NCBI RefSeq assembly: GCF_025685415.1
Contig: NZ_JAGSYB010000001.1
Coordinates: 3,596,001-3,660,000, forward strand
Reading direction: 5' to 3'
Source of the DNA: Terriglobus aquaticus
GTDB lineage: Bacteria; Acidobacteriota; Terriglobia; Terriglobales; Acidobacteriaceae
DNA length: 64,000 nucleotides
Program-made: the position numbers and the translations under genes
Notes under the pieces: model-generated
Seen by the model: only the letters and a program-made list of their open reading frames with translations
What the model was told of the DNA's origin: nothing
The model's database searches: none
Shown: positions 24,746 through 27,841 of the stretch, piece after piece
How the letters are laid out: every line of letters begins with the position of its first letter
Position numbering within the stretch: position 1 is the first letter of the stretch

Positions 24746-25339
24746 TCAGCCGCGGGCGCGCTCGTAGTGGAAGTGCAGTTCCTGCGCGCTTTGAACGGGC
24801 GTGCCGTTGCGTTTGGCTGGTTGGAAAGTCCAGGTCTGGACCTTGGCGAGGACCTCCTGGTCAATTGCCGGGGTGAGGCCTTCCATTAGTGTCAGCTTGG
24901 AGATCTTCCCCGCTTCGTCAATCACCGCTTCCAGAACAACGTCGCCCTGCTGCCCGGGAGAGAGGGTGCTGAGGTCCGGCTGCGGCGACGGGTAGAAGCG
25001 AACGAGCGCGATAGAGATGTCGCCCTGGCCCAGCCCGCTAAGCTGGCTGGAGCCGGTGCCTTTCTCCGCGCTGGTCTGGTCGGTGCTGGGCTTCGTCGTT
25101 GGGATGGGTGGCCTGGGCTTAGTCACGTTCGGCTTCTTCGCTTCCACGGGCCGCGTCGTCTGCGCGCGCTGGTCCGCCGCGGAGCCGGGGCTGTAATACG
25201 TGAGCAGGTGCAGACCGGATGCGGTGCCCGGAAGTTTGTAGGGCGCGATCGACGGGGCGTGCTGGATGGTGACCAACAATAGCGCGGCCGCGCTGAGGTG
25301 CGCTGCAAGGGAGAGAATCATTCCGCGCGGCTGTTGCAT
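24746..25339 (-). CDS. TonB-family protein (C-terminal TonB domain)
   Basis: 197 residues, GGAGG seven bases ahead of the ATG at 25339. An N-terminal membrane helix (LSLAAHLSAAALLLVTI), a Lys/Pro/Thr-rich spacer (KPNVTKPRPPIPTTKPS) and a C-terminal TonB-like domain (GDVVLEAVIDEAGKISKLTLMEG, VLAKVQTWTFQPAKRNGTPV). The protein should span the periplasm and pass energy to outer-membrane receptors, or act in another TonB-like role. No exbB, exbD or TonB-dependent receptor is nearby. It lies 172 bases downstream of a second TonB-like gene on the same strand; the gap lacks a clear terminator. Confidence 0.85.
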   Translation of the reverse strand: MQQPRGMILSLAAHLSAAALLLVTIQHAPSIAPYKLPGTASGLHLLTYYSPGSAADQRAQTTRPVEAKKPNVTKPRPPIPTTKPSTDQTSAEKGTGSSQLSGLGQGDISIALVRFYPSPQPDLSTLSPGQQGDVVLEAVIDEAGKISKLTLMEGLTPAIDQEVLAKVQTWTFQPAKRNGTPVQSAQELHFHYERARG

Positions 25340-25511
25340 TGCTGCACACCTCCAGATGGGACAAGTATCTGACGATCTGGTATTGCATTGGTGAAATCTT
25401 GCCAGAGGCTTCGGATCGACCTCTTACAGGTGATTCAACCGACCAGTGACCCGAAGCGAAGCCAGCCGTGATGGCAGGCGTCGTGGAGGCTCCGCGTGAA
25501 TCGGGAATGGC

Positions 25512-26246
25512 TCAACCGCCGAAGGTGAAGTTGACCGTGACGGTCGTCTCCACCTCGGTGGGTTCACCGTTCAGCAGGTAGGGGTGGTAGCGCCACTGGC
25601 GGACGGCGTCCAGTGCGCTGGCGCGCAGCATTTCTGGACCGGAGACGACCTGCAGGCCCTCGCTGGTGCCTGCCTTGGAGATGATTGCGCGCAGCACAAC
25701 CGATCCGGAGACGTGTGCGGCCTTTGCGATTGCCGGGTAGGCAGGCGTTGTCTTGTTCAGCAGCGCACCGGCGGCGACGCCCGCCGAGATCGGGATGCGG
25801 GCCGGCTTCGGCTTCGGAGTGACAGGCGTGACCGCGACGGGGACGCTGGCGGTGTTCAGAGCGCTCATGACGCCGCCGTCGGAGCCGCTGCCGCCGCCCG
25901 TGGTTGAGCCCACGATGCCGGAGGTTGCGAATGTGGGTGGTGGCGGCTCGCGGTCGGTGCTGATCCTGGTTGGGATCTTGGGCGGCGCGACCATTGGGTT
26001 CAGCGGTGCGATGGTTTTGGCTGCTCGCACGGCCTGCACCGGTGCTGGTGGCGGGGCGGCGGGTGGTGGCGGCGGGGCGATCAGGGTTGCGGTGAGCGCG
26101 GTTCGGGGCAGCGCTTCCGGGTGCAGCAGAGGGATGAGGATGAGGGCGGTGAGGATGAGGAGGTTGAAGGCGAGCGTGGCAAACATCCAGTACCTGGACT
26201 TCGACTTCAGCTTGCCGGCGGACTCGACCAGCGCGGTTTCAAACAC
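25512..26246 (-). CDS. TonB-family energy transducer
   Basis: 244 residues, probably with a GTG start at 26246. One membrane helix near residues 20-42 (YWMFATLAFNLLILTALIL), a Pro-rich run (APPPPPAAPPPAP) and a flexible Gly/Ser section, then the TonB C-terminal domain (YPAIAKAAHVSGSVVLRAII, ALDAVRQWRYHPYLLNGEP, ending TVTVNFTFGG). The AVRQWRY..P pattern is the hallmark of these acidobacterial TonB proteins. With the shorter paralogue downstream it makes an orphan pair without ExbBD. Upstream lies a hairpin and three TAAGTTCT repeats that may be part of its leader. Confidence 0.87.
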   Translation of the reverse strand: MFETALVESAGKLKSKSRYWMFATLAFNLLILTALILIPLLHPEALPRTALTATLIAPPPPPAAPPPAPVQAVRAAKTIAPLNPMVAPPKIPTRISTDREPPPPTFATSGIVGSTTGGGSGSDGGVMSALNTASVPVAVTPVTPKPKPARIPISAGVAAGALLNKTTPAYPAIAKAAHVSGSVVLRAIISKAGTSEGLQVVSGPEMLRASALDAVRQWRYHPYLLNGEPTEVETTVTVNFTFGG

Positions 26247-26546: not shown

Positions 26547-26921
26547 CTAGTCGCAGCCGAGTCCTTCAAGGAAGGTCACGTCCTCGGTGATCTCGTGGGG
26601 TTGGACTTGAAGGTGATCCTGAATGACTGCTTTCAGGGTCAGCCAGACTTCAGGCGCAGTCCACGGCACCACTGCTGGATCAGGCTCAATGGGAAATTCG
26701 ATTGTCTTGTGGAACATGCGCCGCGTGGATGAGCGAAAGCGAGAGAAGACGACCGTTGACGGCTCAATCTGCTTGGTCGGGATATAACCAAGTCCAAGTT
26801 TGTCGAGCACGAGTCGGTAGAGGTCGCCCACGGTTCTCACCTGCGCGCAATCGCTGTCCGGCAGCGAGATGCCGAACACCTCCTCCGTACGCAGGATGAT
26901 CTCGATGGTGTCTAGGCCCAT
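26547..26921 (-). CDS. Acyl-carrier-like protein with circularly permuted halves and no phosphopantetheine Ser
   Basis: 124 residues. The start reads MGLDTIEIILRTEEVFGI and then LPDSDCAQVRTVGDLYRLV, which matches the second half of an acyl carrier protein (SLDTVELVMALEEEF, EIPDEEAEKITTV). The last 33 residues (VWLTLKAVIQDHLQV, then EITEDVTFLEGLGCD) match the first half of an ACP, which normally ends LGAD just before the modified Ser. So the order is reversed and the cut lies exactly at the DSL site: the protein ends on Asp, and Gly2 sits where Ser should be. A middle segment (residues about 50-88) with Arg, Phe and Pro is not ACP-like. An in-frame TGA lies directly before the ATG, so no normal N-terminus has been missed. 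Probably cytoplasmic; function unknown. Confidence 0.7.
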   Translation of the reverse strand: MGLDTIEIILRTEEVFGISLPDSDCAQVRTVGDLYRLVLDKLGLGYIPTKQIEPSTVVFSRFRSSTRRMFHKTIEFPIEPDPAVVPWTAPEVWLTLKAVIQDHLQVQPHEITEDVTFLEGLGCD

Positions 26922-26950
26922 TCACGTGCAGGGTAGCAGGTGAAGGTGTG

Positions 26951-26987: not shown

Positions 26988-27516
26988 ATGACTCGAGGCT
27001 TAGTGCGGTGACACGTAAGAGAGACCTGCACTTCCTTACATTCAGTTGCTGGCAGAGCTCCCCTTCCTACACGACGCTTTCGCTCTTGCCGAAGAGGCGC
27101 TGGAGCGGGTGCGAGTTCGCTACAGAATGAATGTGGTCGGGTGTGTTTATGCCGGAGCATGTGCATCTGCTGGTGGATGAACCCGAGGTGGGCGTGTTAG
27201 GGGACGCGATCAAGATGTACAAGCTTTCGGTGACCCTGCGGCAAAAGAAACGACCTTTTTGCAGAAGCGGTACTACGACCGGAACCTTTGCACGCACGAC
27301 GACATGGTTGAGGTGCTCCGGTATATCCATCGAAACCCGATCAAGCGTGGTTTGGTCGTGAAGCCTGAAGATTGGCGCTGGTCGAGTTACCGGAACTATG
27401 CGTTCGGAAAGACCGGCCGGGTTGGTGTGGATTCGAAGTGGGCCCGTGAGGAGCCTCGATGGAAGCCTGCAACTCCAGAGATTAAATCGGGCGATGGTGG
27501 CTCGTTTGAGATGTAG
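26988..27516 (+). pseudogene. Degenerate REP-associated tyrosine transposase (RAYT, Y1_Tnp)
   Basis: Pieces of one transposase lie in order but in different frames. MTRGLVR stops at once; a shifted frame gives DLHFLTFSCWQ; another gives EALERVRVRYRMNVVG; another MPEHVHLLVDEPEVG to LRQKKRPF with the catalytic HxH (HVH); and the last QKRYYDRNLCTHDDMVEVLRYIHRNP to WRWSSYRNYAFG, stopping at 27516. At least four frameshifts or stops make it non-functional as one protein. These HUH enzymes move or maintain REP palindromes. Palindromes flank it at 26951 and 27537, and its 3' end is duplicated downstream. Confidence 0.8.
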
Positions 27517-27536
27517 GGCGAAATCGGAGTACCGAA

Positions 27537-27562
27537 CCCATGTCCGAAAATCCGGACATGGG
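27537..27562. repeat. REP palindrome copy 1
   Basis: CCCATGTCCG (27537-27546), loop AAAATC, CGGACATGGG (27553-27562): perfect 10-base stem, followed by GCAC. It lies 21 bases after the end of the transposase relic. An identical hairpin occurs at 27768. Confidence 0.8.
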
Positions 27563-27576
27563 GCACCCGGCACCCG

Positions 27577-27748
27577 GCGTGGTTTGGTCGTTGAGCCTGA
27601 GGATTGGTTCTGGTCGAGTTACCGGAACTATGCACTCGGAGAGACCGGCCGGGTTGGTGTGGATTCGAAGTGGGCCCGTGAGGAGCCTCGGTGGAAGCCG
27701 TCGATTCCGAGCCTTGATCTGAGTGAAGATGGGTCGTTTGAGATGTAG
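27577..27748 (+). pseudogene. Duplicated 3' fragment of the RAYT gene
   Basis: From GCGTGGTTTGGTCG at 27577 the sequence repeats that at 27345 at an offset of 232 bases. It would encode RGLVVEPEDWFWSSYRNYALG to the end SEDGSFEM and stop at 27748, closely matching the last 57 residues of the relic. The homology runs on through the palindrome (27537 and 27768), so a unit of about 217 bases, gene end plus REP, was duplicated in tandem and has since diverged near the 3' part. The fragment has no start or catalytic motif. Confidence 0.75.
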
Positions 27749-27767
27749 GTGGTATGGAGCTTCGAAG

Positions 27768-27793
27768 CCCATGTCCGAAAATCCGGACATGGG
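27768..27793. repeat. REP palindrome copy 2
   Basis: Same 10-base stem and AAAATC loop as copy 1 (CCCATGTCCG / CGGACATGGG), followed by GGCACTC. Second half of the tandem duplication; it lies 48 bases before the start of the DUF4238 gene. Confidence 0.8.
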
Positions 27794-27841
27794 GCACTCT
27801 GCCCTGTCTGGTTTAATGCAGTGGAGGTTCAGGATCTCGAC

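Follow-up and report, generated by a model that had tools for sequence, protein, structure and literature searches.

A circularly permuted relative of acyl carrier protein without its serine, in Terriglobus aquaticus and in nine bacterial phyla

A solitary gene with the halves of an acyl carrier protein exchanged

The DNA analysed here (the window) is a stretch of 64,000 nucleotides from the Terriglobus aquaticus genome (contig NZ_JAGSYB010000001.1, positions 3,596,001 to 3,660,000 of the forward strand). On its minus strand, an orientation that the earlier note on this DNA did not give, an open reading frame encodes P0001, a protein of 124 residues that begins MGLD and ends LGCD (Table 1). 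Stops bound the frame at both ends, as had been reported, and it cannot be extended without crossing one of them. The gene is solitary. Downstream on the same strand lie two adjoining genes for TonB_C proteins (24746-26246, minus strand), and upstream are apparent transposase remnants (27131-27802), which we take to be REP-associated and RAYT-like. Within these remnants, a 173-nt stretch at 27345-27517 has a second copy at 27577-27749 (84%), and a palindromic 35-nt repeat comes after each copy (at 27537 and 27768, 94% alike). A search for promoter patterns at the P0001 gene found none. The terminator pattern gave two overlapping matches near the gene, compared with a mean of 0.9 in shuffled sequences.

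Table 1. Features of the permuted gene in the window (positions are those of the window)
Feature	Position	Strand	Basis
Permuted, Ser-less ACP-like gene (P0001)	26547..26921	-	Open reading frame; two-piece match to ACP
In-frame TGA directly 5' of the P0001 ATG	26922..26924	-	Sequence reading
Gly2 codon, at the place of the ACP phosphopantetheine Ser	26916..26918	-	Alignment with 1x3o; Gly in 11/11 independently recovered relatives
Residues 3-43, corresponding to ACP helices II-IV	26793..26915	-	Match to 1x3o 40-80
Residues 44-87, linker; place of the middle domain in long relatives	26661..26792	-	Comparison with relatives
Residues 88-124, corresponding to ACP helix I up to the Asp before Ser	26550..26660	-	Match to 1x3o 2-38
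TAG stop directly 3' of Asp124	26547..26549	-	Sequence reading
Terminator-like hairpin with T-rich tail, 3' of the P0001 gene	26403..26427	-	Pattern match only

P0001 matches acyl carrier protein (ACP) in two pieces whose order is exchanged. Against the ACP chain of PDB entry 1x3o the E value is 7.3e-11 for the whole sequence and about 1e-3 for either half alone. Against 2ehs the C-terminal piece is weak by itself (i-Evalue 16) and the other piece reaches 2.7e-6. A profile of P0001 and 35 relatives (A2, 36 proteins) sharpens both pieces: profile positions 57-88 align with 2ehs residues 3-34 (i-Evalue 8e-6) and positions 3-42 with residues 36-75 (1.7e-12), for a whole-sequence E value of 4.7e-22. 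The phosphopantetheine Ser is the only ACP residue left out between these two pieces. Both Met1 and the last residue take the D35 position, and Gly2 takes that of the Ser. The claims of swapped halves, of a cut exactly at the Ser and of Gly2 in its place are thus borne out, and the half lengths first given, 42 and 33 residues, were right within a few residues.

Standard models recognise the protein unevenly. The Pfam PP-binding family (PF00550) scores 26.8 bits, over its cut-off of 20.8, in two stretches, and P0001 stays below the cut-off of every listed NCBIfam ACP model (for TIGR00517, 41.4 against 70.45 bits, again in two stretches). One long relative, L044, exceeds the cut-offs of both TIGR00517 (73.6) and NF002148 (80.5, cut-off 71), so permuted proteins can be given an ACP name.

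At the sequence level, P0001 is a circular permutation of ACP that has lost its Ser. The single-chain order of helix I, DSL and helices II, III and IV is absent, since the halves are swapped, and so is the phosphopantetheine Ser of the DSL motif. The two-piece match is not due to chance, and both chain ends recur among relatives. The protein would be expected to fold as the four-helix bundle of ACP.

Relatives, chain ends and descent

Relatives were gathered by scanning a genome collection with an alignment of four members (A1), from which the best 80 of 90 loci were kept. The matched frame begins MGLD in 79 of the 80; the match at the exception, L076, is an ordinary ACP, and its contig carries a permuted gene ~3 kb beyond. 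The collecting rule, which demanded MGLD, yielded 89 distinct open reading frames over all retained loci. Four were dropped as incomplete: the broken copies L032 (in genome G212, head and tail in different frames) and L079 (stop after 26 residues), L057, whose frame lacks the conserved end, and L077, whose frame runs into the contig end. This leaves 85 complete distinct relatives, or 90 with five later members (L237-L240 and L235, a copy on a Gemmatirosa plasmid).

The chain stops exactly at the D35 place, one residue before that of the Ser, in 83 of the 85 relatives, and one residue later in the other two (L074 and L106). The end was part of neither the search pattern nor the collecting rule, which makes this count a genuine test. 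At this place 66 relatives have D, nine have G and four have N, and the rest have other residues. For the start, MGLD in 85/85 and ATG in 76/76 are no evidence, because pattern and rule demanded them. Whole genomes were instead searched with profiles from which the four N-terminal residues and the final one had been removed (A3 and A7), and frames were classified with the A3 profile. Among the frames of the loci returned, 28 are swapped in order with no DSL ahead of them, and each has MGLD at that place; many are genes of the genome on which a search was centred, loci used to build the models, or duplicates. Among the recoveries outside the models, MGLD is found in 11 of 11, all with the identical end place (L144, L145, L206, L209, L210, L216, L219, L237, L238, L239 and L240; L206 and L210 are genes seen before as L031 and L037). 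Six frames went unclassified, including L120 (a locus behind the models, with MGLD), both frames of the broken L032 and a degraded copy at L144. At the last locus, the intact permuted gene has beside it two reverse-strand frames, beginning at 839 and 970, that match a head (starting MGME) and a tail, probably a degraded second copy.

None of the permuted relatives recovered has Ser at position 2. Ordinary ACPs have DSLD in 123 of 123 distinct sequences, even though the rule for collecting them would have accepted A, G, T or N at the Ser site. The arrangement that would have spoken against a permuted family, helix I first with DSL following, occurs only in these ordinary ACPs and is absent from the permuted set.

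The reading frame itself leaves some room at the start. In the A1 set, no possible start codon (ATG, GTG or TTG) lies between MGLD and the stop before it in 51 of 76 complete frames, and in 25 this interval is at most five codons long. Nine have an upstream in-frame ATG (L034, L054, L062, L069, L078, L082, L084, L091 and L106), where the N-terminus may be longer, so in some relatives the start is not forced by sequence. Patterns resembling Shine-Dalgarno sites precede only 24 of the 76.

Could the cut itself be the working part of the protein? The alpha-amino group of Gly2 and the last alpha-carboxylate would then meet where the pantetheine arm starts in ACP, an arrangement that we consider quite unlikely to be functional, and it seems just as doubtful that one chain end does the work of the serine, as attachment point or catalytic group, in a carrier without one. 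For such a carrier of a new sort, either the Gly2 amino group, after removal of Met1, or the C-terminal carboxylate would be acylated or otherwise loaded. Gly2 was present in all 11 recoveries made blind to it, and the end place is fixed in 83 of 85 relatives while its side chain varies. Ala, Ser or Thr at position 2 would likewise permit Met removal, and that Gly is kept all the same leaves some room for reactive ends. However, no modifying enzyme recurs nearby, we know of no such chain-end chemistry for ACP, and the Gly might be fixed merely by the geometry of the chain start against the chain end. We give a carrier of this kind a slim chance.

The permuted genes are under purifying selection. 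Non-synonymous changes per site are fewer than synonymous ones in 13 of 13 gene pairs, with P0001 and its relative L030 (61% identical) at dN 0.34 and dS 1.73, and the weakest case, L048 with L050, at 0.019 against 0.030. These values bear on whether P0001 is an artefact or debris, whether from reading through two ACP genes in tandem, from a frameshift in an ACP or from a copy in decay. Tandem ordinary ACP genes do exist in the window's family, and the permuted profile bridges such pairs over an intervening stop (in all nine hits of this kind checked); four of the 89 collected frames are incomplete, and a degraded second copy adjoins the permuted gene at L144. However, the window holds a clean single frame, the same ends recur in 85 complete relatives that include unrelated genomes, and selection acts on all 13 pairs. 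Read-through, frameshift and decay are rejected on the conserved ends and on dN below dS, leaving an artefact barely credible, and the earlier judgement that P0001 is no truncated or frameshifted ACP holds.

The tandem genes suggest a route by which permutation may have arisen. Several Acidobacteriaceae carry tandem ordinary acpP genes (L207, L208, L211-L215, L217 and L218), and the A3 profile spans each of the nine pairs, matching the C half of the first gene, passing the stop and continuing into the N half of the second. Duplication of an ACP gene in tandem, followed by trimming, could produce a permuted gene. Two contigs carry both a permuted gene and an ordinary acpP, some 3-4 kb or less apart (L076:2147-5930 and L056:757-5258); the permuted gene comes directly after what we assume is a trpB-like gene in L076, and after a presumed guanylate kinase-like gene in L056.

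In a tree of the 85 permuted proteins, rearranged to ACP order, and 52 ordinary ACPs, the two sets separate except for L044, which the free tree places among ordinary ACPs; the tree has few columns and many open forks. Holding all 85 together gives a likelihood 19.27 log units higher (p-AU 0.709). The data allow a single origin with later loss and transfer.

Conserved residues, size forms and distribution

Among the 85 permuted relatives, D38, E41 and E47 are kept in all, D31 in 83, F50 in 80 and D56 in 78. The D35 position has become the end of the chain, and 66 relatives have D there. These counts differ in weight: D38 and E41 were demanded by both the search pattern and the collecting rule, the rule loosely asked for E, D or N near E47 and for F, Y, L or M at F50, and D31, D56 and the chain end were asked for by neither. 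Hydrophobic core positions are also kept, and the other surface positions of helices I, III and IV drift. P0001 has the acidic residues of recognition helix II, with D4, E7, E13 and Asp124 at the places of D38, E41, E47 and D35. PMC8024396 describes FabB as contacting ACP via Asp35, Asp38 and Glu47. In ordinary ACPs, D38, E41 and E47 are fixed in 123 of 123, so their conservation in the permuted proteins could be an inherited folding or metal-site constraint.

This ambiguity leaves room for a reading in which the ACP fold was co-opted for an unrelated task, such as holding a metal or a lipid in its cavity, and docking on partners was lost. The drift of the helix I, III and IV surfaces agrees with it. 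PMC12469350 places two metal sites in ACP, A (Glu30/Asp35/Asp38) and B (Glu47/Asp51/Glu53/Asp56), and the acidic residues kept in the permuted proteins include members of both. Weighing slightly against it, E41, which lies outside both sites as listed there, is kept in 85/85, a weak point because E41 was in the search pattern and rule. We regard co-option as unlikely.

The family comes in several sizes. Short forms of 85-92 residues, in which only a linker joins the halves, make up 32 of the 85; a further 12 have 107-124 residues, of which 11 are from the window's family, P0001's own, and one (L084) is from Verrucomicrobiota. One relative has 168 residues. The other 40 are long forms of 192-257 residues with a middle domain (L044:5127-5603 is an example; L240 carries a short version). 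Strongly hydrophobic stretches occur in the middle domain of 28 of these 40 and probably span a membrane; the other 12 have none. This further domain, mostly with hydrophobic stretches, and the strictly kept chain-end place are findings beyond those of the earlier note.

An alignment of 22 middle domains shows the motifs C-(S/T), an FY-x-x-R helix, W, P-x-L and TV-x-D-L. The domain resembles ACP in a profile comparison with ordinary ACPs (P 0.0044, against 0.82-0.99 for the reversed and five shuffled controls), in a register that pairs helix I with helix I, the W-helix with helix II and TV-D-L with helix IV and puts the hydrophobic part where helix III would be; HH-suite's own probability for this match is only 3%. 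We suggest that the middle domain may be a second, degenerate ACP-like domain. Among Pfam families at E up to 0.1, six matched the middle domain, each in only 1 of 33 members, and a PDB search gave no convincing match (best E 3).

Record titles and lineages place the permuted family in nine phyla: Acidobacteriota, Planctomycetota, Verrucomicrobiota, Bacteroidota, Pseudomonadota, Chloroflexota, Thermodesulfobacteriota, Myxococcota and, via the Gemmatirosa plasmid copy, Gemmatimonadota. Many host assemblies are metagenome bins, and single phylum assignments may be wrong. Similar short proteins in other bacteria had been mentioned in the earlier note, correctly.

The gene is distributed sporadically. 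With P0001 as query, full-length matches were found in 2 of 19 genomes of the window's genus, its own included, and in 4 of 297 genomes of its phylum, counting its own and the broken L032; a fifth match in the phylum, L033, is an ordinary ACP. The A3 profile recovered the gene in 6 of 150 genomes of the window's family (L205, L206, L209, L210, L216 and L219), in 1 of 398 Pseudomonadota genomes (the one on which the search was centred) and in 2 of 240 from Verrucomicrobiota. It also gave matches in 33 of 246 Planctomycetota and 38 of 247 Bacteroidota genomes, where among the loci returned only the centre's own (L119) was permuted. The long-form profile A7 found 2 of 169 genomes in Planctomycetota and 4 of 164 in Verrucomicrobiota, one of them in each case the centre. 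These genome counts are lower bounds, given strict limits and, in most searches, the scoring of part of each genome's candidates. Ordinary ACP is also present in all 10 permuted-gene genomes checked (nine by match rows, L123 by its DSLD), and the window's genome likewise holds an ordinary ACP with DSLD (L002).

Gene neighbourhoods are as variable. When 799 naively called frames around the loci were clustered, the top cluster was the family itself (MGLD in 64 of 65 members), and the others that recurred were ABC-transporter ATPases (7 loci), Hymenobacter syntenic genes (4-7) and short-chain dehydrogenases (4). An operon partner was sought among these clusters and rejected, as all are generic or come from close kin. 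In two sets of neighbouring frames scanned against Pfam (117 and 111, together 228 of the 274 listed), no family occurred in more than three members of either set. Close same-strand neighbours vary by locus and include accA, tilS, UbiA, MutS_V, YbjQ and SIMPL. Beyond generic genes and synteny within Hymenobacter and other close kin, no neighbour family is conserved among the relatives, which fits a partner encoded elsewhere.

We also considered whether the gene is cargo of phages or other mobile elements. Among viral contigs, the pattern MGLD[TA]VE[LI] had eight matches, none encoding a relative, and phage records gave three half matches only; with no complete relative in either, this reading was rejected. 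For plasmids, 1 of 10 records matched by a short-form query holds at least 80 percent of it (Gemmatirosa), as do 0 of 7 matched by a long-form query, of which Persicobacter covers 38 percent.

Mitochondrial ACP has a structural role in complex I, and a permuted ACP might likewise be a dedicated structural subunit, a fixed and never-loaded block of one complex that would not compete with ordinary ACP. The loss of the Ser with retention of the helix II face is consistent with this, and in 28 of the 40 long forms the hydrophobic stretches of the middle domain would provide a fixed site. Against these points stand the lack of any complex gene accompanying the permuted gene and a distribution that is sporadic even in the window's genus (2 of 19 genomes), which would be unusual for a subunit of a core complex. 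We consider a structural subunit rather unlikely.

A possible apo mimic of acyl carrier protein

What, then, might the protein do? The reading that we favour, tentatively and with somewhat less than even confidence, is that it is a natural circularly permuted ACP acting as a permanently apo mimic that docks on ACP-binding enzymes. An ACP-like chain without its Ser, encoded by an accessory gene with no local partner, suggests docking on enzymes or regulators common to many bacteria. A decoy, regulator or structural partner, as opposed to a carrier, had been proposed from the sequence of P0001 at the outset; the kept docking residues and the missing Ser fit that proposal, no partner was found for it, and it stays a conjecture.

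As an apo mimic, the protein, open between the Asp and Ser of DSL and with Gly in place of the Ser, would keep the docking face and lack the residue that can be loaded. Helix II (D38, E41 and E47), together with the C-terminal residue, usually Asp, at the D35 place, would dock on enzymes or regulators that recognise ACP, and the docked mimic would compete for them or tether them, as a decoy or adaptor. From the residues retained, the permuted protein may bind ACP partners. There is a precedent of sorts for an effect of unloaded carrier: a review (PMC3896788), in a passage whose gene names look mixed up, states that apo-ACP inhibits glycerol-3-phosphate acyltransferase more strongly than holo-ACP does.

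The plainest account of the exact ends is that they keep the surface round the Ser place like that of a nicked ACP, in which the new N-terminus lies opposite the new C-terminus. The natural N- and C-termini of ACP lie at the same end of the bundle. Once joined, they would give room for a linker or an extra domain away from the docking site, and in the long forms the extra domain, mostly with hydrophobic stretches, could hold the docking face at the membrane. Set against the mimic reading are a gene neighbourhood that hints at no partner and the fact that a point change of the Ser is a simpler route to an unloadable ACP, so that the idea of a decoy by itself leaves the permutation and the fixed ends unexplained.

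ACP is among the best studied of bacterial proteins, and yet here is a family, spread over nine phyla, in which the two halves have traded places at the active serine and that serine is gone. It is a clear natural circular permutation with an active site as its break point. A search of the literature on permuted ACPs, ACPs without the serine and ACP decoys, with most subscription papers outside its scope, found no such protein. If the protein is a natural unloadable ACP, it would be a ready-made probe for enzymes governed by ACP docking alone and may reveal a control layer of lipid synthesis. Should the work be done at its chain ends, it would represent a carrier of a new kind.

Among known systems, the permuted family can be compared with the ACP chains of mitochondrial complexes (PDB 7a23, 6gcs and 8e73), which its profile matches, with the best stretch covering their C half; we take these chains to have the normal order and the Ser. 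The closest comparison is with AcpP itself (TIGR00517, PF00550). Both halves match it over nearly the whole length, and the acidic residues of helix II, the hydrophobic core and the TV at the start of helix IV are kept. Unlike AcpP, P0001 has its halves swapped, lacks the Ser and ends its chain at the former Ser site, and the permuted family carries a linker or an extra domain where ACP has its ends.
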